64,000 nt of DNA. Origin: Parasphingorhabdus cellanae. GTDB lineage: Bacteria; Pseudomonadota; Alphaproteobacteria; Sphingomonadales; Sphingomonadaceae. Location of the stretch: positions 1,612,001 to 1,676,000 of the forward strand of contig NZ_CP071794.1 in NCBI RefSeq assembly GCF_017498565.1. The letters run 5' to 3'. The position numbers were made by a program, and so were the translations under genes. Positions 17,655 to 35,883 of this stretch are shown in pieces (positions within the stretch are counted from its first letter, which is position 1; each line of letters opens with the position of its first letter). The notes under the pieces were generated by a model, which made no database searches, was not told where the DNA came from, and saw only the letters and a program-made list of their open reading frames with translations.

Positions 17655-19994
17655 TTAGAAATTAACTTTGCCTGTCAGGCCAAATGTGCGCCGCTCACCG
17701 AAAAATTCACCATAGGTGGTACCGAAAGGCAGAACCACAACGAAAGCATTCGACACATATTTTTTGTCAAAAGCATTGCGTATCCAGGCATTTACAGAAA
17801 AGTTTCCGAAGGTAACGCCTGCACTGCCATTGACCAGAAAGCGGTCCGGAATTGTCCCGACATTGGCCGTCGATGCGAAAAAGTCGCTTTGATAGCTGAA
17901 ATCCGTCCGTAGATAATAATTGCTATCTCCGGAGCCGATTTCTCCCTCCCACTGGATACCAAAGGATGCCTGGGTCGGCGGTGTACGTTCAATATCATTG
18001 CCTCCAACATCGCCATTGGAGTTACACACCACATCATCACAAGGTGCGGAGATGAAAAAGGGCGTACCCGGCGTACCACGTGTCCGCGCAAAGCGCTGAT
18101 CGATGGTGCCATCATCATATGTTGCCTCGGAATGCGAGAAGGTCGCATCAATGCTCAAGTTGTCGGTTATCTGGTAGAAAGCATCAAGCTCAATACCATA
18201 GATTGATGCACCGCCAAGATTTTGGGCAATTGCGGTGGCATTCGGGTCAGTCGCATCCGGATCGGGAGAATTGATTACGACATCCCGCCAATCCGTGTAA
18301 TATATCGATCCGTTGAGACGAAGATCACCGCCCAGGAAGGTGTTTTTGGAACCAATTTCAAAGGTCCAGTTGGTCTCTTTGTCAAAAACCTGGTTCTCCG
18401 GAGCGAGCGCGGTCGGATTAAAACCACCGGCCTTTGAACCTTTTGCAACCGTTGCAAAAAGAAGACTCTCATCGCTGAGATCATATTCGGCCGTGAAGCG
18501 CGGCGCAAAGTCTTTAAACGTATCGCTTAGTGTCAGAGACCTGCGGTTGTCTATCGCTGTAATCTCTGTCTCGGAATATCTTCCTTCTGCTCCCAGGCGA
18601 AGTGCGCCATTTGCTGATGTCCAGTGAATTTCACCAAAAATCGATTTGATTTCGGTGTCGGTGGTGGTGTCTCCCAAAAGAAAGGCGAATGGATCGCCCG
18701 GAAAAGGATCATCGGCACTTACGATCGGATTTAAATTGTTGCTCGTAAATGTCGTGATGTCCGTACCATCGGAATAATAGACCCCGATTGCTCCCCGAAA
18801 CTGACCCGAATTGTCAAAATTGAGCCGCACCTCATGGGAGTCGTAATCCATGCTGCCGACCGGTGTATTCTGGAAATTACACCGCCCCGCAACAAGCGTT
18901 CCGCAGTTAATCGGCTCCGGTTCGCCGCTGACCGCAATATCAACATCGCCGTTTACGTTGCCGAACAAATAGCTGAATGTCAGCGCATCAGAAACATCAA
19001 TTTCCAGATTGGCCCGGAAAAAGCCGGTCTTTGAATGGACGCCGTAGGCCCGCGGGTCAACAATGACTGAATCTCCCGGTGCAGGCAAATCGCCGCAGAT
19101 TAGCGCAGGATTGGGCCCCACGCCGAAAATGGTGCGATTGGAACCACAATTGAAATCACCCAGAACTTCCGCCAGATAGCGGTTCGCGCGGGCTTCTTCT
19201 TTTCTGTTAAAATGGTTGTAGGACGCTTCCAGGCGAACCCCGTCTAACGGTTTGAACGCTGCTGAAACCGAAATGGCCTGATTGTCCCGGCCACCGACAT
19301 TACCGGATGTACCGCGATCCAAGTCCAGACTGTCGGCGAACGGGTGGTCATTATCCCAAGAGCCATCAAAAGATGAATATTCGTAAGAACCTGCAATGGC
19401 AAACCATTCATTGACCGAGAAGTTTAGAAAACCGCCAATATCATAGCGCTCGTCAGATCCAATTGTGCCCTCGATCTCGCCGGAAATCTCTCCCGTAATC
19501 TCGGCTTTCCTGGGAATATAGTTGATTGCGCCTGCAAAAGCGTTGCGTCCATAGCGCGCGCTTTGCGGGCCCTTGACGATCTCAATACGCTGAAGACTTG
19601 TTGTACCGAGGTCCACAGCCCAAGCACGCGGTATATATATGCCGTCCAAAAAGGTTGAGACATTCGATTCCAGAGCGGTGACGCGTGTCTGGGCCTGCCC
19701 GCGAATAACCGGTGTGCCGATACCGCCGGAGAAATCCTCAAAGCTGAAACCTGGCGTAAAACGCGCAACATCGTCCAATTCCTGAATCGCCTGGCGAGAT
19801 ATATCTTCCGCGTCAAAGGCTGTGATAGCGAGAGGAACGTCCTGAATATTCTCAGCACGATTACGCGCTGTTACGACGATGATATTGCCATCATCGACTT
19901 CGGCAGCCTCAGACGTTTGTGCAACGGCAACGCTTGGAATTACAAAACCAGTGGCTGCGGCCAGAGCCAATAGACTCACTTTTTGAACGCGCAT
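17655..19994 (-). CDS. TonB-dependent outer-membrane receptor (TBDR-1)
   Basis: This 779-residue protein has a signal peptide ending AVAQTSEA and a TonB box-like NIIVVTA. The plug domain contains the family motif VKGPQSARYGRNAFAGAINY, and a 22-strand-type barrel ends RRTFGLTGKVNF with terminal Phe. It lacks an STN signalling domain, so it is a plain transporter. Sphingomonad receptors of this type import aromatic compounds, terpenoids or oligomers as well as siderophores. The dyad at 20124-20140, about 130 bases upstream, links it with the PhyH-type and aldehyde dehydrogenase promoters, so it probably imports the substrate of that district. Confidence 0.9.
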   Translation of the reverse strand: MRVQKVSLLALAAATGFVIPSVAVAQTSEAAEVDDGNIIVVTARNRAENIQDVPLAITAFDAEDISRQAIQELDDVARFTPGFSFEDFSGGIGTPVIRGQAQTRVTALESNVSTFLDGIYIPRAWAVDLGTTSLQRIEIVKGPQSARYGRNAFAGAINYIPRKAEITGEISGEIEGTIGSDERYDIGGFLNFSVNEWFAIAGSYEYSSFDGSWDNDHPFADSLDLDRGTSGNVGGRDNQAISVSAAFKPLDGVRLEASYNHFNRKEEARANRYLAEVLGDFNCGSNRTIFGVGPNPALICGDLPAPGDSVIVDPRAYGVHSKTGFFRANLEIDVSDALTFSYLFGNVNGDVDIAVSGEPEPINCGTLVAGRCNFQNTPVGSMDYDSHEVRLNFDNSGQFRGAIGVYYSDGTDITTFTSNNLNPIVSADDPFPGDPFAFLLGDTTTDTEIKSIFGEIHWTSANGALRLGAEGRYSETEITAIDNRRSLTLSDTFKDFAPRFTAEYDLSDESLLFATVAKGSKAGGFNPTALAPENQVFDKETNWTFEIGSKNTFLGGDLRLNGSIYYTDWRDVVINSPDPDATDPNATAIAQNLGGASIYGIELDAFYQITDNLSIDATFSHSEATYDDGTIDQRFARTRGTPGTPFFISAPCDDVVCNSNGDVGGNDIERTPPTQASFGIQWEGEIGSGDSNYYLRTDFSYQSDFFASTANVGTIPDRFLVNGSAGVTFGNFSVNAWIRNAFDKKYVSNAFVVVLPFGTTYGEFFGERRTFGLTGKVNF

Positions 19995-20490: not shown

Positions 20491-20603
20491 GATAGATCAT
20501 GATTGGGGGCATTCCCTACGGTACACTACACTCTCACTTATCTATATAAATCGGTACCTTGCTTACACATAGGTTATTTGAGATTGTTGTAAGCGAGATC
20601 ATC

Positions 20604-21840
20604 ATGCCCAAGCTGACAAATCGTTTGATAGATACCTTGAAACCAGACGAAAAGCGCCAGCTTTTTATGTGGGATAACGAGCTACGCGGCTTTGGTGTTC
20701 GGATGTTGCCAAGTGGCTCCGCTGCCTATTTTCTTCATTATCGTAATGAGGAAAAACTGGCGCTCGTCTGCAAGGGCGGTGATCCGATCGAACAACGTAG
20801 AGCCGAGCGCAACGCGCCAACCGTTAGCGAGATTTGCGATTGGTATCTGGAGGCAGCTATTGGGTGGACGACGCCTCCCTATAGCGTCTTCGACTCTGAA
20901 ATTTGATCGCGGCCGGATCGAGCGACACGTCAAGCCTCTGCTTGGTGGTCGTTTGGTGCGAGCATTGACTTTGACCACCTCGAACGCTTTCAGGCAGACG
21001 TTGCCGCTGGCAAAACATCACAGGAAAGACGGGGACGCGGTGGAATCACTACTGGGGCGCCGGCGTTTGGGGGCGCGGGCGTTGCTGGCCGTACCATAGA
21101 TATGCTCCATACGATATTCGATCAAGCAGCGCGCGGGGACCTCATCGATACCAACCCCGCACGAAATGCCCGCAACCTTACTGCTGAGAAGAAGCAGATA
21201 AAACATTTGTCCGTCGAACAGATCAAGCTGATTGGTGATATCATACGCAACAACCCGCAAGAGAATCCCGTGGCATGTGCGATGCCATTCGCTTGGTGCT
21301 GCTCACAGGCTTTAGGCGGACGGAAGCACTAGGATTAAAGCATGACTGGATTGATGAGAAATCAAATTGCGTCTATTTTCCCAGCACCAAGACGGGCAAC
21401 CAAATACGTGTGATCAGCAGCCATGCAATTGCCCTAATAAAAGCGCAGCCTATTATCGGCGACAATCCCCGCATGTTTACTGGCGAACGTGGCGATGGTC
21501 ATTTTGTTGGCATCCCGCGCGTTTTAAAGCGACTATCAGTCGAGACTAAATCGAGGGTCTTACCGCCGATCGGTTGCGTCACAGTTTCGCATCAGTCGCC
21601 GCTGAACTGGGATATTCCGAGCTGACTATCGCATCATTGCTAGGCCACGCATCACGCGGCGTTACCCAGCGTTATGTGCATATCGACAAAGCGGTCTTGC
21701 AAGCGGCGGAACATGTATCTGCACAATTAGCTGAATGGCTGGAACCCAGACGTCCTTCCGGATTTCAACCGATTGGCCTAGAATCGCGACAGAAATGGTC
21801 GAGTGACTGGGTATCCACTAAGGCTGCTACGAACAGGTGA
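20604..21840 (+). pseudogene. Decayed P4-type tyrosine integrase
   Basis: The N-terminal arm-binding domain is clear (MPKLTNRLIDTLKP, then WDNELRGFGVRMLPSGSAAY), but the segment after HYRNEE is shortened. The reading then shifts several times. LKFDRGRIERHVKPLLGGR continues in a second frame and LHTIFDQAARGDLIDTNPAR in a third. The catalytic domain (LVLLTGFRRTEALGLKHDW with the first Arg) is followed by one more shift before RLRHSFASVAAELGYS and LLGHASRGVTQRYVHID, which hold the HxxR-like, His and Tyr residues. No single frame could make an active enzyme. Its position beside the tRNA-Gly fragment is the usual island arrangement. Confidence 0.8.
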
Positions 21841-22269: not shown

Positions 22270-24642
22270 TCAGTCAAATCCAACCCGCAAACTCACGCCG
22301 AATATCCGGGGATCGAGCAGGAATGCGCTCCTAAAGCTACCGACCAACTCAGAATTCACTTCGAAAAATGTGATGCTGTCCTGGTTGAGTACATTTTTAA
22401 CAAAGGCGGTTATGCTGAGGTCACGATCCTGACGCGCCAGCTGGAGCGACAGGTCAAATTGTTCCCATCCATCCACCCGGTCGGCCGCCGTATTGAACTC
22501 GCGGCTGTTAAAGCTGGTCTGGCTGTAAAAATCGGCACGGGGGCGGATCGTCCAGTCTGATCCCACCTCTATAGTGTACTCCGCCGCAAGCTTGAGCGTG
22601 CGCTTTGGCGCATTAGGCAGGGTGTTACCCTGAAGCTGGAACGGCGCAAAGCCACGCGACGCGTCCTCGCTCATAAAGTCGCTGCGAATTTCCGTATCGA
22701 GCAGACCCAGTGCCGCTTCGAGCCTTAAGTTCGGAACAGGAGTGGCAAAAGCCTCCAGCTCAAGGCCCTGAACCCGTGAAGACGGAATATTCGTATTCTC
22801 CGCGAGGCCGCCGACAATCTGACCAAAAATCAGGTTCTTGTAGTCATAGCGGAAGATTGCGGCATTCACCGTCAGGCGGCGGTCGAAAAATTCGTTCTTG
22901 CTGCCCAGTTCGTAGGAATCGATAAATTCAGACCCGAATGTCTGGCTGGTGGCGGTAGATCCGGGATTAAATCCGCCAGATTTGAAGCCACGAGAATAGG
23001 TCAGGTAGACGTTATTTTCGGGCGTAGGTTGCCAGGAAATACTGGCACGGCCGGTCCATGCATCGAAATCCTCTTCGCCGACAAAAGGTTCACCCAAGGC
23101 CAAAAAGCCACTGGCCGTGACAATTTGCTTCTCGTCCTTCGTATAACGCAAACCACCCAAAAGACTGATGGTCGGCGTCAGATCATAATAGATTTCACCA
23201 AAAGCGGCATAGCTGACAACTTCTGCCAGGCTGGTATTGCCGCTTGTCAGAAAGCCTAACGTCCGGTTGGCAGGCAGATAGGTATTCACTTCCCCGGTGC
23301 CGTCCGCGTCCAGATAATAGCCGCCGATGAGGAAATTGAACGGGCCTTCGAAATCAGAGGCCAGACGCAGCTCCTGGCTGAACTGCTCCCGCGTGCCAAA
23401 TGCTTCCTGGGCCGTCAGGTAATTTGTTGTCGTTATCGTCTGCCCGTTGCCAATATTATAGGTCAGCACACCATTACCGTTACCATCGTCGGTTACTGTA
23501 AAGGGTGCGCCGAACACAGTAAAATCGCCGGGATTGAAGGCATTAGGCCGCGTGCCCTGATCGAAATCGCGATAGGAACTGTTTTCGCCATCGCGATAAC
23601 CGGTAACCGAGGTGAGACGCAGATTGTCGCCAATATCCTGATTGATCACCAGCGTTGCGAGAAAATCCTCGTTACGCTGGATTGGATCAATATCGATCCG
23701 CACTTCGCGCAGATTGGTGGGGTTATCGCTGAACGTATCAGCCCGTACAATGCCGGGAAGCAATCCGTTGTCGATCGGGAAATTGTTGCTCGGGAAATCG
23801 AAATCAACACTGTCCGGCGAACAGCCCAGCACAGGGTCCGGCGTGCACAAAGACTTGACCGCATTGGCACGATTGCTGTCCTCGCGGAAATAGGTCAGCG
23901 TCAGATCCACCGTGGTGCGCGACGTCGGCTCAAAGCGGGTGCTCGACCGCAGCGTAAACTGGTCACGGCCATCTATGCGGTTACCGTCAAACAGGTTTTT
24001 CGTATAACCGTCGCGTTTCAGGAAATGCGCGGCAAAGCGTTGCGACAGACCATTGGCGATGGGGATGTTTATCGCCCCTTCTGCCCGGATACCGTCGAAA
24101 CGCTCTAGCTGAATGGACGCATAGCCGCCAAATTCATCTTTTGGTTTGGCGGTAACAATGTTGATTGCACCGCCGGTTGTGTTTCGCCCGAACAAGGTGC
24201 CCTGTGGGCCACGCAGAACTTCGATCCGCTCCAGATCAAAAAACTCTCCGAATGTTGAGCCTTGCTGCAGAAATACGCCGTTTTGAAGTATCCCGATATT
24301 GGTGTCATTGGTGCCGCCAAAAGACTGTGAACCGACACCGCGGATTGTGAGGTTGCGGTTTGCCGACAAGACCACATTCGGGGCGTTGAACTGCAAATCA
24401 AGAGCGTCTTCAATTTTCGCCGCCTGCAGGTCATCGCCGCTCAGGGCCGTGATGGCGATTGGAACGTCCTGCAGATTTTCTTCGCGCAGCTGGGCAGTGA
24501 CGATGATCACGTTATCATCATCGTCGGGATCAGCGCCTGCCTCCTGGGCGGCAGCGACACCTGTCGAGCCAGCCCAAGCCAGCGCAACTGCCGACACGCA
24601 TGCTGCTGTTTTCCTGCTTATTTTACGATATTTTCCAGACAT
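22270..24642 (-). CDS. TonB-dependent outer-membrane receptor (TBDR-2)
   Basis: About 790 residues with a signal peptide (MSGKYRKISRKTAA, then a core ending VAAAQ). A TonB box-like DNVIIVTAQ, the plug motif LRGPQGTLFGRNTTGGAINI and a barrel with C-terminal FGVSLRVGFD identify the family. No STN domain is present. AAGGA lies just before the ATG at 24642; a GTG five codons earlier also has a purine-rich site. About 55-80 bases upstream lies the TATTG-N10-CAAT type dyad shared with the 24826-25920 hydrolase/26052 oxidoreductase divergon and the SDR, so this receptor is probably the outer-membrane entry of that module. Confidence 0.9.
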   Translation of the reverse strand: MSGKYRKISRKTAACVSAVALAWAGSTGVAAAQEAGADPDDDDNVIIVTAQLREENLQDVPIAITALSGDDLQAAKIEDALDLQFNAPNVVLSANRNLTIRGVGSQSFGGTNDTNIGILQNGVFLQQGSTFGEFFDLERIEVLRGPQGTLFGRNTTGGAINIVTAKPKDEFGGYASIQLERFDGIRAEGAINIPIANGLSQRFAAHFLKRDGYTKNLFDGNRIDGRDQFTLRSSTRFEPTSRTTVDLTLTYFREDSNRANAVKSLCTPDPVLGCSPDSVDFDFPSNNFPIDNGLLPGIVRADTFSDNPTNLREVRIDIDPIQRNEDFLATLVINQDIGDNLRLTSVTGYRDGENSSYRDFDQGTRPNAFNPGDFTVFGAPFTVTDDGNGNGVLTYNIGNGQTITTTNYLTAQEAFGTREQFSQELRLASDFEGPFNFLIGGYYLDADGTGEVNTYLPANRTLGFLTSGNTSLAEVVSYAAFGEIYYDLTPTISLLGGLRYTKDEKQIVTASGFLALGEPFVGEEDFDAWTGRASISWQPTPENNVYLTYSRGFKSGGFNPGSTATSQTFGSEFIDSYELGSKNEFFDRRLTVNAAIFRYDYKNLIFGQIVGGLAENTNIPSSRVQGLELEAFATPVPNLRLEAALGLLDTEIRSDFMSEDASRGFAPFQLQGNTLPNAPKRTLKLAAEYTIEVGSDWTIRPRADFYSQTSFNSREFNTAADRVDGWEQFDLSLQLARQDRDLSITAFVKNVLNQDSITFFEVNSELVGSFRSAFLLDPRIFGVSLRVGFD

Positions 24643-24695
24643 TGGTCCTTGCGACACTGATCTTCTCCCATCCTGTTGTTTTGCGAAAGATTATC

Positions 24696-24721
24696 TTAAT
24701 TGGAAATAGAGTCAATAATAA
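24696..24721. promoter_or_regulatory. Shared TTGACT-containing dyad, copy 1 (TBDR-2 promoter)
   Basis: Read towards TBDR-2 the site contains TATTGACT, then TTTCCAATT, giving the dyad TATTG-N10-CAAT. The same string with the same spacing stands before the 25920 hydrolase and the 30544 SDR. TTGACT could be a -35 box, but the right arm, in the same place at all three sites, is better explained by a repressor operator. Confidence 0.6.
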
Positions 24722-24825
24722 TTGTCAAATTGGTCAATTAATGCCTCGATGAGCTACAACCGACAGCTTGGTTAGCGAAAAATAGGAGACCTGCGTCAGC
24801 AGACATCTGACCCAATCAAGCAGGT

Positions 24826-25920
24826 TTATGGTTCGCGCTTGCCATCCAGAAAATCGACAATCGCTTGAGTGCCGAGCTCCGGTTTTTCCATTGAGGTCCA
24901 ATGGTTAATCCCGGGCAGACGGACAGTGGTCCAGTCATCCCCGTAATTACTCACTTTTTCGATCAATTCAGGCACAAAAATCTGGTCCGCCTCCCCCCAG
25001 ATAAACAACGTGGGAACTTCGATTCTCGCTTCTGCTCCGGGCCACAGGTCAGCATCACTAATCTCTTCAAAAGGAGGGATATTCGCGCGATACCAGTTCA
25101 TCGCCGCGTTGATTCTTTCCGGATCATTCAGCGCAGCATGAAAAAGGGCAACCTCCCCGACTGTTAGATCACCGCGATCCAGCAGCCCCTGATAGGATCG
25201 TTGGGCAATATTCTTTGCGGCATCGGTTGCGCGCAGCTGGTCCAGCGTGGTTGTCCGCATGACTTGCATATATTGCGACCGTTTTTGCTGTTCCTCGTCG
25301 GTTTTCATATGTTTCAGCAGGGCGTTCAGGGGCGGTGCGCTCATCCCGATGACTTTGTGCAGCCGATTCGGATAGGCCTGCGCATAGGAAAGAGCGAGAA
25401 CAGCACCCCAGTCATGTCCGACAAGCACATATTTCTCATCACCGCCCAAATGACGGGACAGGGCGTCAAGCTGTGCTGCAAGCCTGGCAATGTCATAGGG
25501 GGCAGGATTCTGCGGTTTGGCAGACAGGCCGGAGCCTAGACCATCAACCGCCACGACGCGGTATTCTCCCTTTAACGCCTCCATCTGGTCGAACCAGCTG
25601 TACCAAAAGGATGGAAAGCCATGATAGAAGATGATCAGCGGCCCCTCACCTGCCTCGACGTAGTGAATCCGGTCGTTGCCCTCGCCAAAATAGCCTTCCC
25701 GATAGCCGATATTGCCTGTGCGATTGGCATTAGCAAAAGTTACCGCGGGGTCGGTCACTTGCATATCATTACTGGCAGTGATCGGTGGTGCTGAATTGCC
25801 GGACGTCGCGACCGGCTCATCGCTGCGTGATTCGCCAGTGCAACCCACCAGCAGGCAAGGCGCTATGATGGTAGATGTGAGCTTTCTCAGCCACCTCGTC
25901 TCTCTCACTATCTCTCGCAT
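24826..25920 (-). CDS. Alpha/beta hydrolase lipoprotein, epoxide hydrolase / haloalkane dehalogenase type
   Basis: About 364 residues from the ATG at 25920, which has GGGGAGAGG directly upstream; a longer start at 25950 lacks this. The N terminus is a lipoprotein signal ending LLVGC, followed by a Ser/Asp/Thr-rich linker. The hydrolase domain has HGFP (oxyanion), the nucleophile elbow G-H-D-W-G with Asp instead of Ser, an acid in WGEADQIFVP and the His in INHWTSMEKPE. An Asp nucleophile is typical of epoxide hydrolases and dehalogenases, which are usually cytoplasmic, so a membrane-anchored periplasmic version is unusual. It diverges from the quinohemoprotein gene across one shared operator. 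Confidence 0.85.
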   Translation of the reverse strand: MREIVRETRWLRKLTSTIIAPCLLVGCTGESRSDEPVATSGNSAPPITASNDMQVTDPAVTFANANRTGNIGYREGYFGEGNDRIHYVEAGEGPLIIFYHGFPSFWYSWFDQMEALKGEYRVVAVDGLGSGLSAKPQNPAPYDIARLAAQLDALSRHLGGDEKYVLVGHDWGAVLALSYAQAYPNRLHKVIGMSAPPLNALLKHMKTDEEQQKRSQYMQVMRTTTLDQLRATDAAKNIAQRSYQGLLDRGDLTVGEVALFHAALNDPERINAAMNWYRANIPPFEEISDADLWPGAEARIEVPTLFIWGEADQIFVPELIEKVSNYGDDWTTVRLPGINHWTSMEKPELGTQAIVDFLDGKREP

Positions 25921-25965
25921 TACCTCTCCCCGGTAAATTTGCCATTGCATTGCGCCTACACGCCG

Positions 25966-25990
25966 TTATTGTAAAGATAGTCAACAATAA
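25966..25990. promoter_or_regulatory. Shared TTGACT-containing dyad, copy 2 (hydrolase / quinohemoprotein divergent promoter)
   Basis: TTATTGT and ACAATAA form a perfect 7+11+7 inverted repeat in the 131-bp gap between the divergent hydrolase and PQQ enzyme genes, so one bound protein could control both. On the minus strand it contains GTTGACT followed by TTTACAATAA, aligned with copies 1 and 3. Confidence 0.65.
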
Positions 25991-26051
25991 AATACTGCGC
26001 CTGTCAAATCTTTCCGAGGAGGCAGGGCGTGGAGAGGTATGACTTGATCTG

Positions 26052-27923
26052 ATGCGTTCTATCTTTACCAGTTCTGCTACCATTCTGTTCGCCGCGAGCT
26101 TTTTGGGGGGCTGTGACTCGAGCGGAAAACCGACGCAGCCGGATGACCGGTCAGCGAACACCGTAACAGTCCAGAACGAGGCAGGCAAAGCACTATATCA
26201 GCAATATTGCGCAAGTTGTCACGATAACGGATCCACCGAGGCCCCGACCAAAGCGGCGATCATGATGCAGGGGACGGAAGAAATTGTCCGCGCGCTGAAC
26301 AGCGGCATCATGAAAGAGCAGGCATCCATGCTGCAACCGATGCAGCGGCGGTTAATTGCGGAATATCTTGGCAGCCCCAAAACAGGCGATGCGCTGGTTA
26401 ACGCAAAAGCCAACCAGTGTAGCGGTACCCTGAAGCTCGCATCCTCGCCCTCATGGAACCGTTGGGGCAACGGCCTTCGGAACTCCCGTTATCAGCCAGC
26501 ATCGCTTAGCGGTATCAACCCGCAAACCGCACCAAATCTGAAACTCAAATGGGCCTTTGGTTTCCCCGGTGCAGCAAGAGCACGTTCACAACCGGCTGTG
26601 ACCCGGGAAGCGATTTTTACCGGCAGTCAGAGCGGACTTGTCTATGCCCTGGACACAAAAACCGGATGCGTCTGGTGGACCTTCGAAGCCAAAGCGGAAG
26701 TGCGTAACGCACCCACTATTTCCACGGATAGCGAAGGCAAGCCCAAGACGCTCTATTTTGGTGATCTGGAGGCAAATGTTTATGCTGTCGATGCCGGGAG
26801 CGGCGAACTGCTCTGGACCCGTTCTGTCAGGGATCATCCGGCCGGCACAATTACCGGTTCGATAACGCTGTATAAAAGCCGCCTCTTTGTGCCGATGTCT
26901 TCACTCGAAGTCGTCAATGCCTATAGCCCTGAATATGAATGCTGCACCTTTCGGGGCGGTGTGCTGGCGCTAGATGCCAGAACCGGTGAGACGCGGTGGC
27001 GTTTCTACACGACCGCAAAACCGGAAAAAACCGGCACCAACAGTGTTGGCAGAGACCGGTTTGGTCCTTCTGGCGCACCGATCTGGTCTACGCCCACCGT
27101 CGATCGCAAGCGCAATCTGATCTATGTCGGCACGGGCGAAAACTATTCCTCCCCGGCCAATGATATGAGCGACGCGATCATCGCGCTCGAACCGGATAGC
27201 GGCGCAGTGGTCTGGGTTCAGCAAACCATAGAAGGCGACGCATGGAACGCGGCCTGTGGGCGGCACGGCACGCAGGTAAATTGCCCGGAAGAAAACGGAC
27301 CTGATTTCGATTTTGGTGCGCCGCCCATCCTGACCCGGCTATCCAACGGCAAGGATATCATTCTGGCTGGTCAGAAGTCCGGCATGATTTACGGCATGGA
27401 TCCCGACAATGCAGGAAAAATATTGTGGGAAAAACGCGCTGGTATGGGCGGCTTTAATGGCGGCGTGCATTGGGGCATGGCAACCGATGGCGAAACGCTG
27501 TTTGTCGGTATCGCCGATACGCCGGGCAATGAATTTGCCGTTGGCCCCGCTCGGCAGGGGATGCACGCCTATGATCCGGCCACAGGAAAGGCGTTATGGA
27601 GCAAATATGAACCCGATGTCTGTGACGAGAACAAACATGAATGCCGCACCGCCCTCTCCGCGCCGCCAACGATTACGCCGGGGGTCATATTTTCAGGAGC
27701 GCTCAATGGCATTTTGCGCGCCTATTCGATGGATGGTGGAACAATCTTGTGGAGCACCGATACCCGGCGTGAATATGAAACTGTTAACAACGTAAAGGCT
27801 CGCGGAGGATCAATTGACTCGAGCGGGCCTGTGGTCGCAAACGGCCTGCTGATCGTCAACAGCGGCTATGACAAATTTGGCCAGATACCGGGCAATGTAA
27901 TGCTCGTATATGGACTGGAATGA
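26052..27923 (+). CDS. PQQ- and haem c-containing dehydrogenase, polyvinyl-alcohol-dehydrogenase-like lipoprotein
   Basis: This 623-residue protein has a lipoprotein signal (ending FLGGC), a small cytochrome c domain with C53-A-S-C56-H57, and a PQQ beta-propeller. Propeller blades are recognisable by repeats such as GLVYALDTKTGCVWWTF, ANVYAVDAGSGELLWTR and GGVLALDARTGETRWRF. This order (haem first, propeller second) is that of sphingomonad PVA dehydrogenase; quinohemoprotein alcohol dehydrogenases have the opposite order. It should oxidise secondary alcohols in the periplasm and pass electrons to a cytochrome. Its stop overlaps an ATGA just before the VOC gene, so the two form an operon. Confidence 0.82.
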   Translation: MRSIFTSSATILFAASFLGGCDSSGKPTQPDDRSANTVTVQNEAGKALYQQYCASCHDNGSTEAPTKAAIMMQGTEEIVRALNSGIMKEQASMLQPMQRRLIAEYLGSPKTGDALVNAKANQCSGTLKLASSPSWNRWGNGLRNSRYQPASLSGINPQTAPNLKLKWAFGFPGAARARSQPAVTREAIFTGSQSGLVYALDTKTGCVWWTFEAKAEVRNAPTISTDSEGKPKTLYFGDLEANVYAVDAGSGELLWTRSVRDHPAGTITGSITLYKSRLFVPMSSLEVVNAYSPEYECCTFRGGVLALDARTGETRWRFYTTAKPEKTGTNSVGRDRFGPSGAPIWSTPTVDRKRNLIYVGTGENYSSPANDMSDAIIALEPDSGAVVWVQQTIEGDAWNAACGRHGTQVNCPEENGPDFDFGAPPILTRLSNGKDIILAGQKSGMIYGMDPDNAGKILWEKRAGMGGFNGGVHWGMATDGETLFVGIADTPGNEFAVGPARQGMHAYDPATGKALWSKYEPDVCDENKHECRTALSAPPTITPGVIFSGALNGILRAYSMDGGTILWSTDTRREYETVNNVKARGGSIDSSGPVVANGLLIVNSGYDKFGQIPGNVMLVYGLE

Positions 27924-27934
27924 GGAGAAAGTTG

Positions 27935-29041
27935 ATGATCAGATCTGTCGTTGCCGGGCTGGGCCTTGTCCTGTGTCTCACATCGTGCATGCAACAAAGC
28001 GAAGTTGCTTCCGCGGGTGATGATACCACCCCACAGGCCACTGATGAACCACGGACTGTCCAGTCCGACTTTTTCCGCCCCTCCACCCTGGGTGACACGC
28101 GTATCAAGGGGGTTCGCTTCGTTGGCAAAACCGTGTCCGATATCGATGATACAATCGCTTTCTACCAGCAAGCCGTACCCTATGAATTGGTGCACCGGTA
28201 CCGTATCCCTGCCAGCGAGATTTATCTGCCCGGAATGATGGACCGGAAACATGGCGAGGTCGAAATTGCCCTGATCAAAACGCCGACCGTGTTCCTGCAG
28301 CTGACAGACTTTGATCCTGACGCAAAGGAACCACCATTTGTAAAACCTGTTTACGGCCCGGGCTATACCCATGTCTGTTTCCAGTCCCCTGCTTCCGATC
28401 AAGCCTTCTCTAAGTTCAAGCAAGCGGGACTGGACATCGTCACCATAGGCGGTGAGCTGGTCGATATCGGCGGCTATGGTATCGTCTATGCCTATGGACG
28501 TGATCATGATGGTACGATGATTGAAAATGAAGTCATGGACCGTCCAACACGACAGGAAAAAGCATGGATATCGCATATTGGCGGTGCCACATCCGACGTG
28601 GATCGGATGATTGCTTTCTATACAAAATTTATCGGCTATGGCGCGCGCAGAACCGGTGAATATTCGGGTAACAAAAAGATTGACGCCATTGCGGGCATCG
28701 ATGGACTGGTACTGCGAAGCTCATGGTTTGTGGTGCGCAACCTGCAACTGGAATTCTGGCAATATGTTACCCCGCCGACGCCTGTCCGCGACGCCCCTGC
28801 TATGGTCGACCAGATGGGTTACAATATGACCGCATTCGAGGTCACCGATGCCGATGCGGAACGGAAACGGCTGGCCGCCGAGGGGATCAAGATGATGGGC
28901 CCCGCGATAATGAGCCGCGGCTGGAAAATCTATTATGCGCATGACCCTGACGGCAACATAATCTCCATCCAGCAAAACATGTCGGCTGGAAAAGATGAAT
29001 CTATCGATGCGATGCTATGGATCGATCCAACAACATATTGA
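27935..29041 (+). CDS. Two-module VOC (glyoxalase/dioxygenase fold) lipoprotein
   Basis: About 368 residues. I chose the ATG at 27935 because AGGAG lies 8 bases upstream; the ATG at 27920 overlaps that site. The signal peptide ends CLTSC (lipobox), so the protein is periplasmic and membrane-anchored. Two VOC modules follow: the first from KGVRFVGKTVSDIDDTIAFY, the second from ISHIGGATSDVDRMIAFYTK, with candidate metal ligands in YGPGYTHVCFQSP and the Glu in NLQLEFWQY. VOC proteins are normally cytoplasmic, so export is notable. It could cleave, isomerise or bind the product of the co-transcribed PQQ dehydrogenase. Confidence 0.78.
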   Translation: MIRSVVAGLGLVLCLTSCMQQSEVASAGDDTTPQATDEPRTVQSDFFRPSTLGDTRIKGVRFVGKTVSDIDDTIAFYQQAVPYELVHRYRIPASEIYLPGMMDRKHGEVEIALIKTPTVFLQLTDFDPDAKEPPFVKPVYGPGYTHVCFQSPASDQAFSKFKQAGLDIVTIGGELVDIGGYGIVYAYGRDHDGTMIENEVMDRPTRQEKAWISHIGGATSDVDRMIAFYTKFIGYGARRTGEYSGNKKIDAIAGIDGLVLRSSWFVVRNLQLEFWQYVTPPTPVRDAPAMVDQMGYNMTAFEVTDADAERKRLAAEGIKMMGPAIMSRGWKIYYAHDPDGNIISIQQNMSAGKDESIDAMLWIDPTTY

Positions 29042-29116
29042 GAGCCATGCGGGGCGCGATATACATAGCGAGGGATGACGCTTCATTCCCCACGGACATT
29101 ATGTTAGTCGAATCGG

Positions 29117-29779
29117 ATGAATGAACAAAGTCCAATCAAACAGCGGCGTTACAGCCCGGAAAAGCGCAAGTCCCTGATCCTTGACCACACGGCGAACATT
29201 GTGGCGAGAGAAGGCGTCGCGATGGCGACGATGGACCGTATCGGTAGAGAAGCGGGCATCAGCAAATCGCTGGTTTATACCTATTTTGACAACCAGACCG
29301 ATTTGCTCAGAGTATTGCTCAAAAGAGAGCTTAAAAGGCTGAGAAAACTGCAGGCGAAAGAGGCCAGAGAGGCGGAAACTTTCGAAGGTCTGGTGCGGGG
29401 TGTAACCCACCAGTACCTGAAATATATTGAGGAACGCGGCCTGCTTATCGAACGCCTGCAGGCAGAACCGAGCGTATCGGACGGCCATGACCCGACAGAT
29501 TACAGCCGCGACGATGCAGTCGATTATATTGCCGATATTGTCGTCGACAATTTTAACCTGCCGAGGACGCTCGCCAAAACCGTGATCGATATCTCCTTTG
29601 GTTTACCGGCAACCGCCGGAGCCCATTTCCTGCGCAGTGATGAAAGCCGCCAGGAAATCGAAGATATCACGGTGACCATGATATTGGGTTCGCTCAACGC
29701 AATAGAAAATGATTTTGCCAAAAGGCAGCGGCCTTTGATACGCCAAAAACCGGAAGCTGGCACCAAAGCTGAGGAATGA
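29117..29779 (+). CDS. TetR family transcriptional regulator
   Basis: This 220-residue protein has an N-terminal helix-turn-helix typical of TetR: ATMDRIGREAGISKSLVYTYF followed by NQTDLLRVLLKREL. The C-terminal ligand domain is not assignable. It lies after the quinohemoprotein/VOC operon and converges with the SDR gene at a distance of 6 bases. It is the only TetR regulator in the window, and the 25-bp dyads before TBDR-2, the hydrolase/PQQ divergon and the SDR have the size of a TetR operator. I infer that it represses them and is released by the substrate or a metabolite. Its own promoter lacks an obvious copy of the dyad. Confidence 0.88.
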   Translation: MNEQSPIKQRRYSPEKRKSLILDHTANIVAREGVAMATMDRIGREAGISKSLVYTYFDNQTDLLRVLLKRELKRLRKLQAKEAREAETFEGLVRGVTHQYLKYIEERGLLIERLQAEPSVSDGHDPTDYSRDDAVDYIADIVVDNFNLPRTLAKTVIDISFGLPATAGAHFLRSDESRQEIEDITVTMILGSLNAIENDFAKRQRPLIRQKPEAGTKAEE

Positions 29780-29785
29780 CCCTAT

Positions 29786-30544
29786 TCAACCGGGATGAAT
29801 GGTCTGGCCGCCATCCAGCACCAAAGTCTGCCCGGTCATGAAATTGCTTTTCTGCGAAGCCAGATAGACGGCAATTCCTTCCATATCCTCCAAAGTTCCA
29901 AACTCGCCTGAGCAGGAGCGTCGTTTGCACGCGTCACGAAATGCCTGGGAGGTTTCGCGAGACATCTCTGTCTCGATATAGCCCGGCAAGATAGCATTTG
30001 CCTGTATGCCGGCACGACCCAGTTCGACAGCCAAAGCTCTTGTCAGTCCTGTAACGGCCGCCTTAGTCGTCGAATATCCAGCATGCAAGGGCGTACCCAA
30101 AAGAGCAGCGGCCGAAGACGTGACAACCAGTTTTCCGCCGCTTTTCCGTTCAAGGAAATGGGGGATAACCGCCTTGTACGTGTCCACGACACTCGTCAGA
30201 TTGAGGTCCACAACAGATGACCAATCGCTACCGGACAGCTGGTGCAGCATCGCTGTCGATCCGGAGCCCCCGGCATTGGCAAAGCAGCTGTCGACTTTAC
30301 CAAATCGCTTCAGCGTTGAATCAAATGTCGCCTTGATGTCTTCAGGATCAGTGACGTCACATTGAAAAGCCTCCACATCACCGCCCATATCTTTGAGCGC
30401 AGCAAGGGCATTTTCATTTTTTTCGCTATTGCGGCCCCAGATTGCAACGCTCGCCCCCGCCTTGACCAGGCCCTTTGCCATGGCAAGTCCCAGGCCCCCG
30501 TTTCCGCCGGTAACCAAAGCAACATGGTCGGATAAATCAAACAT
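29786..30544 (-). CDS. Short-chain dehydrogenase/reductase (classical SDR)
   Basis: About 252 residues from the ATG at 30544, where the family N terminus begins (MFDLSDHVALVTGGNGGLG); the longer frame up to 30640 would add non-homologous sequence over the operator. The cofactor motif is TGGNGGLG, with NAG in CFANAGGSG, the catalytic Ser in VTSSAAAL and Tyr-x-x-x-Lys in YSTTK. NAD(H) dependence is likely. It lacks a signal peptide and is cytoplasmic, unlike the other enzymes of the module. The shared dyad (30622-30646) lies about 80-100 bases upstream. It probably oxidises or reduces an alcohol/ketone after import. Confidence 0.87.
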   Translation of the reverse strand: MFDLSDHVALVTGGNGGLGLAMAKGLVKAGASVAIWGRNSEKNENALAALKDMGGDVEAFQCDVTDPEDIKATFDSTLKRFGKVDSCFANAGGSGSTAMLHQLSGSDWSSVVDLNLTSVVDTYKAVIPHFLERKSGGKLVVTSSAAALLGTPLHAGYSTTKAAVTGLTRALAVELGRAGIQANAILPGYIETEMSRETSQAFRDACKRRSCSGEFGTLEDMEGIAVYLASQKSNFMTGQTLVLDGGQTIHPG

Positions 30545-30621
30545 ATATTCAGGCTCCAAGCTCTTCAGGAAAGACTGCTTCCGGACCAAAAATATCACGC
30601 CGGACAAGATCAAGCTGTTAC

Positions 30622-30646
30622 TTATTGCAAAATAAGTCAATAGTGA
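30622..30646. promoter_or_regulatory. Shared TTGACT-containing dyad, copy 3 (SDR promoter)
   Basis: TATTG (30623-30627) and CAATA (30638-30642) form a perfect 5+10+5 dyad. On the minus strand it reads CTATTGACT, then TTTTGCAATAAG, in register with copies 1 and 2. All three copies point the same way relative to a downstream minus-strand gene. Confidence 0.6.
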
Positions 30647-35319: not shown

Positions 35320-35604
35320 TTACATCAATACACTGTTTAATATTACTTTGTTATCACGAACCAAGATTAAAATTTTACACTATTCCGTTCAATCTTTTTC
35401 CAGACTATGCGCATATGCGTTATTAGTGTCTGGCAGTCCACGAAGTTCGCGCAAGGATTGCACAAAAAAATCTGGCATTAAATCAATATCGGCAACGCCA
35501 GAAGGCGCATAATCGCTCAAGTCAGAGATACTTACCTTCCCCCAAATAGTGGTCCGATTTGAGGGTTAGAGATACGGCTGTTTATCTTGAGAAAGGAAAG
35601 ATGG

Positions 35605-35883
35605 ATGGCTCGTAAAAGATATACGCCAGAACAGATAATTGGGATGCTTCGGGAGGCCGAAGTTCGGCTTGCGACAGGAGAGAAGACGGGAGCGATATGC
35701 AGGGAGTTAGGCATATCGGAGCAGAGCTACTACCGTTGGCGCCGTGAATATGGCGGTCTGAAGGTGAGTCAGGCACGTCGTCTGAAGGAACTGGAGAAAG
35801 AGAACCAGCGGCTACGCAAGGCGGTTTCCAATCTGACGCTGGATGCGCTGATTTTGAAGGAAGCGGTTGAGGGAAAGTACTGA
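35605..35883 (+). CDS. IS3-family transposase OrfA (helix-turn-helix subunit)
   Basis: About 92 residues from the ATG at 35605, which follows a GAAAGGAAAG ribosome site. RYTPEQIIGMLREAEV and GAICRELGISEQSYYRWRREY form the DNA-binding helix-turn-helix, and the C terminus is a leucine-zipper-like helix (LKELEKENQRLRKAVSNLTL). OrfA ends just where the orfB frame begins, so a frameshift would normally produce the fused transposase. The subunit itself looks intact, but it has no active partner here. Confidence 0.85.
   Translation: MARKRYTPEQIIGMLREAEVRLATGEKTGAICRELGISEQSYYRWRREYGGLKVSQARRLKELEKENQRLRKAVSNLTLDALILKEAVEGKY

Follow-up and report, generated by a model that had tools for sequence, protein, structure and literature searches.

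Four copies of a 25-bp motif as probable operators of a TetR-family regulator in a TonB-receptor gene cluster of Parasphingorhabdus cellanae

A 64,000-nucleotide stretch of the Parasphingorhabdus cellanae genome (contig NZ_CP071794.1, positions 1,612,001 to 1,676,000; the window, below) holds a gene cluster in which a TonB-dependent receptor (TBDR-2), an alpha/beta hydrolase, a quinohemoprotein, a VOC-superfamily lipoprotein and an SDR oxidoreductase accompany a TetR-family regulator. Four copies of a 25-bp motif lie among these genes. The sequence comparisons presented here suggest that the four copies are very probably operators of the TetR protein, which would act as an autoregulated repressor of a TonB-receptor catabolic regulon. 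The features are listed below, numbered on the whole 64-kb stretch, with site sequences quoted on the plus strand and the sites named as candidate operators.

22270..24657, minus strand: TBDR-2, TonB-dependent receptor (PF00593/PF07715), proposed regulon member
24697..24721, plus strand: operator A, TAATTGGAAATAGAGTCAATAATAA; before TBDR-2, about 40 bp from its annotated GTG start
24719..24743, plus strand: operator A2, TAATTGTCAAATTGGTCAATTAATG; second tandem copy, 22 bp from A, before TBDR-2
24826..25950, minus strand: alpha/beta hydrolase lipoprotein (PF00561; signal sequence and HDWG signature read by eye)
25966..25990, plus strand: operator B, TTATTGTAAAGATAGTCAACAATAA; in the divergent hydrolase/quinohemoprotein intergene
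26052..27923, plus strand: quinohemoprotein (PF13442 and PF01011), N-terminal cytochrome c followed by a pyrroloquinoline quinone (PQQ) propeller
27920..29041, plus strand: VOC-superfamily lipoprotein (PF00903), overlapping the quinohemoprotein gene by 4 bp
29117..29779, plus strand: TetR-family regulator (PF00440 TetR_N, 36 bits against a cut-off of 24, residues 21-65)
29786..30547, minus strand: SDR oxidoreductase (PF13561)
30622..30646, plus strand: operator C, TTATTGCAAAATAAGTCAATAGTGA; before the SDR gene, 75 bp from its likely ATG at 30547

The tetR gene is located between operators B and C, 3' of the quinohemoprotein and VOC genes and co-directional with them. A first-pass annotation of this DNA had described three sites (A, B and C) that align without gaps; they do so at 24697-24721, 25966-25990 and 30622-30646, the first span having been given one base too long, and on the minus strand all three carry the TTGACT, T-rich centre and CAAT that had been described. 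The count was incomplete, as the copy at 24719-24743, the weakest of the four, had been overlooked. The proposed dyad ATTG-N10-CAAT is present in the first and third sites, but the middle site has GTTG-N10-CAAT there; the perfect TTATTGT/ACAATAA arms claimed for it do exist (N11), with their centre 1.5 bp off the ATTG-N10-CAAT register. Base frequencies over 92 distinct sites from related loci were most symmetric about position 11.0, as TKGAC-N5-GTCMA (score 4.2), and ATTG-N10-CAAT, at 10.5, came second (3.2). The lead of 11.0 is moderate; the symmetric core is probably TKGAC-N5-GTCMA.

The regulator has the N-terminal TetR_N helix-turn-helix characteristic of its family, and, also as in that family, palindromic putative operators are found near its own gene and those of its presumed targets. 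It had been noted as the only TetR gene of the window, and no other open reading frame (ORF) of at least 60 amino acids there was a relative of its subfamily (E up to 1). Sixteen NCBIfam families of named TetR equivalogs (BetI, FasR, FadR, KstR, AcuR and others) were matched and none reached its cut-off, the best being BetI at 35.6 bits against 201.3.

The motif is rare outside the cluster. In the window, the 25-bp consensus with up to three mismatches occurred at two places (0.00 expected) and missed the third site, and a broader pattern found exactly the four sites (0.02 expected). In the 3,777,952-base genome, the pattern WATTGNAAANANAGTCAAYA, itself derived from the three window sites, matched those three sites only with up to one mismatch, and 30 places with up to three (reversed control, 15). 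The broad family pattern with up to one mismatch matched five places in the genome: the four sites and one other (reversed control, one). The many random matches that the first-pass annotation had named as a danger to its proposal were thus not encountered; every target unit has the motif ahead of it, and the rest of the genome is almost free of it. The fifth place, G000:257625, is inside an ORF of 427 amino acids and was taken as chance, so a wider regulon in this genome was rejected.

Matrices built without the window gave a similar result. Three held-out matrices, from 22, 32 and 34 distinct sites of other genomes, each placed the four window sites at the top of the 64 kb, with scores of 19.6-30.8. 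The best scores in shuffled sequence (40 shuffles each) were 19.9, 17.3 and 22.9, so that operator A2, at 20.1, did not outscore all shuffles in the third test. With the first matrix, operator A2 had scored 12.8, below one unrelated match at 947 (15.9), which was absent from the top eight of later matrices. The held-out site sets had been found via this first matrix, which had the three window sites as its seed; a seed-free count of spaced dyads was therefore made (palindromic dyads were counted on both strands, so that 14 equals seven places). In the intergenic DNA of nine loci with TetR proteins 54-61% identical, TATT-N12-AATA was the most enriched dyad, followed by TATT-N11-CAAT (a shifted form) and ATTG-N10-CAAT; in eleven loci with TetR proteins 36-55% identical, TTAT-N7-GTCA came first. 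The top dyads of both counts are parts of the motif.

The sites are conserved where the cluster is conserved. Seven loci (L065-L071), from Sphingorhabdus, Parasphingorhabdus marina and uncultured Sphingomonadaceae, carry a TetR orthologue of 65-74% identity; the TetR protein of P. marina DSM 22363 is 65% identical to that of the window. All seven loci share the order hydrolase / quinohemoprotein-VOC-TetR, and in six the SDR gene is next; operator C is kept before it or, in L069 and in L187, before the gene that takes its place. Over six distinct loci (L066-L068 left out), the mean pairwise identity was 0.87 for operator B, with flanks of 0.41 and 0.36, and 0.85 for operator C, with flanks of 0.27 and 0.29. 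At 26000-26015, some 10 bp downstream of operator B, a CCTGTCAAAYCTTTC block is largely kept in L065, L069 and L072, not in L186 or L187; it may belong to the promoter or leader of the quinohemoprotein gene.

The motif also follows the regulator from genome to genome. Among 32 genomes of the same genus, ten have a TetR protein at least 65% identical, and all ten hold exact TATTGNANNNANMGTCAAYA; the remaining 22 hold no such match (Fisher 1.6e-8), four of them carrying only a paralogue of 46-48%. The 19 exact matches all lay within 10 kb of the TetR gene. Among 397 genomes of the family, 27 had a TetR homologue (E up to 1e-25), and 13 exact matches occurred in nine of these, all within 10 kb of the TetR gene, with none in the other 370 (Fisher 7.6e-12). 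An earlier, narrower scan of 199 family genomes with up to one mismatch had matched 15, one match (in G153) lying more than 100 kb from the TetR orthologue. Some loci and genomes are identical (L070 and G202, L071 and G153). Quinohemoprotein homologues occur in 47 of the 397 genomes. Eleven of them, at 57-100% identity, adjoin TetR, and their genomes have the exact motif (eight) or matrix sites (three); the other 36 genomes, with homologues of 39-48%, have no exact match, and in one of them (G318) a TetR homologue is on a separate contig.

A wider set of 36 loci (696 kb) was picked for TetR alone, and neighbouring genes vary; L070, L071 and L074 were dropped as duplicates of L186, L072 and L198, and the near-identical L065-L068 were kept, which inflates the site counts. 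A refined matrix found 129 sites of at least 12 bits, against about 8 expected from shuffles and 14 in reversed sequence. The share upstream of a gene start (116 of the 129) is biased by the refinement, which retained only matches up to 300 bp upstream of, or 20 bp inside, a gene start. TetR homologues of 36-61% identity lie amid motif variants before TonB receptors and enzyme genes, the targets being TonB receptors, SDR, VOC, hydrolases, PQQ dehydrogenase, PhyH-type oxygenase, glutathione S-transferase (GST), SSF symporter, a galactose gene and GH42 galactosidase. Tandem sites before TonB receptors recur 20-28 bp apart (21-24 bp in L188, L189, L198, L200, L204 and L205), and relatives of TBDR-2 (61-68% identity) stand beside TetR homologues in L075, L188, L189, L190 and L198. 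Upstream of the TetR gene itself, a site scoring at least 18 was found in six of the 36 loci (L078, L188, L189, L196, L204 and L205).

Motif variants track the TetR clade, also among paralogues of one genome (L195/L204, L194/L205). Sites at non-homologous genes of one locus were more alike than sites of other TetR clades (0.634 versus 0.592, permutation p 0.0005; Mantel r 0.28, p 0.002). In the recognition helix, Pro at residue 51 is paired with A at site base 6 in all 18 of its sites, and Ser with G in 60 of 85. Three genomes (G215, G224 and G225) have three or four homologues of the window TetR each; in G215 and G225, three of these share a stretch of about 31 kb on a single contig.

The single regulon that the first-pass annotation had proposed, with TBDR-2, the hydrolase, the quinohemoprotein-VOC pair and the SDR under TetR, is thus supported by site conservation, by the joint distribution of motif and TetR across hundreds of genomes, and by motif reuse at non-homologous genes beside TetR homologues; the comparative support is unusually good. 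From the sites, their conservation, their co-occurrence with the TetR gene and their reuse before other genes, we infer binding by TetR, repression, autoregulation and an inducer. Without ligand, TetR, presumably a dimer, would occupy the four sites, two of them in tandem before TBDR-2, one shared within the hydrolase/quinohemoprotein-VOC-tetR divergon and one before the SDR gene, and would block transcription. As there is no site between the VOC gene and tetR, autoregulation in the window would act through the shared divergent site, operator B. A compound imported by TBDR-2, or its product, would release TetR and so switch on the receptor, the periplasmic enzymes and the SDR together.

Several observations count against this model. 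Autoregulation in the window would depend on transcription from the quinohemoprotein promoter, as tetR has no site directly ahead of it there. The exact match is missing from 18 of the 27 TetR-positive family genomes; those inspected have motif variants, which in L075 and L082 are weak ones only (up to 19 bits). With one mismatch allowed, 82 of the 397 genomes match (73 further ones; reversed control about 26), and some of the matches outside TetR genomes recur word for word across genomes, as conserved coding DNA would. The 36 genomes without an exact match hold distant quinohemoproteins and so separate motif and enzyme weakly. The matrix search started from the three window sites, and its refinement used upstream matches only. 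The kinship of the genomes and the block-wise movement of the cluster make the Fisher and Mantel values overstate independence, and the link at residue 51 may reflect just one or two events.

Four other explanations were weighed. The sites are AT-rich, and chance similarity of AT-rich intergenic DNA could be imagined; conservation above the flanks, the held-out matrices, the pattern counts in window and genome and the seed-free dyads make this the least probable of all. The first-pass annotation had suggested that TTGACT may double as a -35 box, and the repeats might on that basis be shared promoter cores with an incidental dyad. TTGAC is indeed oriented toward the nearest gene at 73 of 107 sites, but it points away at 15 of 15 quinohemoprotein sites, and -10-like hexamers are not enriched behind it (five of six bases reached in 7 of 80 distinct segments, 6.8 expected). 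None of the sites has a sigma-70-like pair, that is, a TTGACA-like hexamer with a -10 hexamer at 16-18 bp, and five genome-wide matches are far too few for a promoter core. The suggested double role was therefore abandoned, and promoter cores are a highly improbable source of the repeats.

The remaining explanations keep the sites as operators. They could belong to a different regulator encoded elsewhere, with the TetR gene a mere passenger of the cluster; as motif and TetR move in one block, co-occurrence alone cannot separate TetR from its neighbours. However, the motif is present in the 36 loci chosen for TetR alone, where other genes vary, its variants follow the TetR clade even between paralogues in one genome, and the 36 genomes with more distant quinohemoproteins lack it in exact form, all of which makes a passenger role improbable. 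TetR might instead bind the sites as an activator, or as a ligand-dependent one, and site positions do vary across the loci, the extremes being 20 bp past the start codon and about 260 bp ahead of it. Most TetR-family regulators are repressors, and so are KstR and MbdR, which control comparable regulons; activation is accordingly unlikely, if less so than a passenger role. Autoregulated repression by the window TetR is the reading retained below.

The enzymes fit periplasmic oxidation and hydrolysis of an alcohol or epoxide; three lipoproteins are present in the cluster by signal sequences read by eye. The true start of the hydrolase is probably an inner ATG near 25920, and its best PDB relatives are epoxide hydrolases (3.6e-37). 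The quinohemoprotein has its cytochrome c before the PQQ propeller, the reverse of the order in type II alcohol dehydrogenases, and it may resemble polyvinyl alcohol dehydrogenase. Relatives of the SDR, hydrolase, VOC and PQQ proteins were too general to name a substrate. Motif copies before a GST gene and a PhyH-type oxygenase gene (L065, 9759 and 14280; L078, 19282) suggest that in relatives the same pathway has additional enzymes. Galactokinase, galactose-1-phosphate uridylyltransferase and GH42 genes lie near the TetR homologue in L078, L188, L189 and L198, pointing to a galactoside substrate in those genomes; an SSF symporter gene is also nearby in L078, L188 and L189. A second receptor gene, TBDR-1 (17655-19994), was rejected as a regulon member, no site preceding it at a matrix threshold of 9. 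Between TBDR-1 and TBDR-2, fragments at 20559-21625 resemble a broken phage-type integrase, and the ORF at 35587-35883 resembles part of an IS3-type transposase; this part of the DNA could be a mobile island.

TetR repressors that control catabolic clusters are a well-known kind of system. KstR, the TetR repressor of a mycobacterial cholesterol/lipid regulon of about 80 genes, likewise represses itself and a catabolic regulon through a palindrome that was identified by aligning sequences across species and often lies at divergent promoters (PMC1995591), but its operator is TnnAACnnGTTnnA (PMC1995591) and the window TetR scores 21 bits on the NCBIfam KstR family, whose cut-off is 280. MbdR, a TetR repressor of the 3-methylbenzoate pathway of Azoarcus, represses its catabolic cluster and its own promoter through several copies per cluster of an operator of the form 4-N10-4 (PMC4424350); it differs in its arms (ATAC-N10-GTAT against ATTG-N10-CAAT in the window), its aromatic CoA pathway and its known inducer (PMC4424350). 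PheR of Sphingobium is also a sphingomonad repressor linked to catabolism, with TonB receptors among the affected genes, but it belongs to the IclR family, with the minimal motif GCAACG (PMC13273656), and was rejected as the regulator on account of its family. Comparative genomics of proteobacterial FabR, FadP, LiuQ, PsrA and RutR used the same method with the same kind of result, and none of these TetR rows in the available part is the window regulator (PMC5343134). A term search of a review of sphingomonad TonB transporters gave no match for TetR regulators (PMC7142613), and among the matches listed from open-licence PMC text no title pointed to this TetR or operator.

Beyond the window, we lean slightly towards a sphingomonad subfamily of TetR repressors that would run exchangeable TonB-receptor catabolic modules, its paralogues kept separate by stepwise divergence of one ancestral operator. 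The modules would comprise receptor, SDR, VOC, hydrolase and PQQ dehydrogenase, with galactosidase, galactose kinase and transferase, symporter or oxygenase added in some genomes, and would parallel polysaccharide utilisation loci. Where one genome holds paralogous TetR/operator pairs, these also provide a natural example of regulators staying separate. Sphingomonads have many TonB receptors of unknown substrate. The shared motif would mark which genes work together on one nutrient, and an operator linking receptor, enzymes and regulator yields testable gene sets; a TetR protein with a defined operator could be used to screen for the inducer, and hence the substrate. If the subfamily reading is true, the motif would serve as a genome-mining tag for substrates not yet known.

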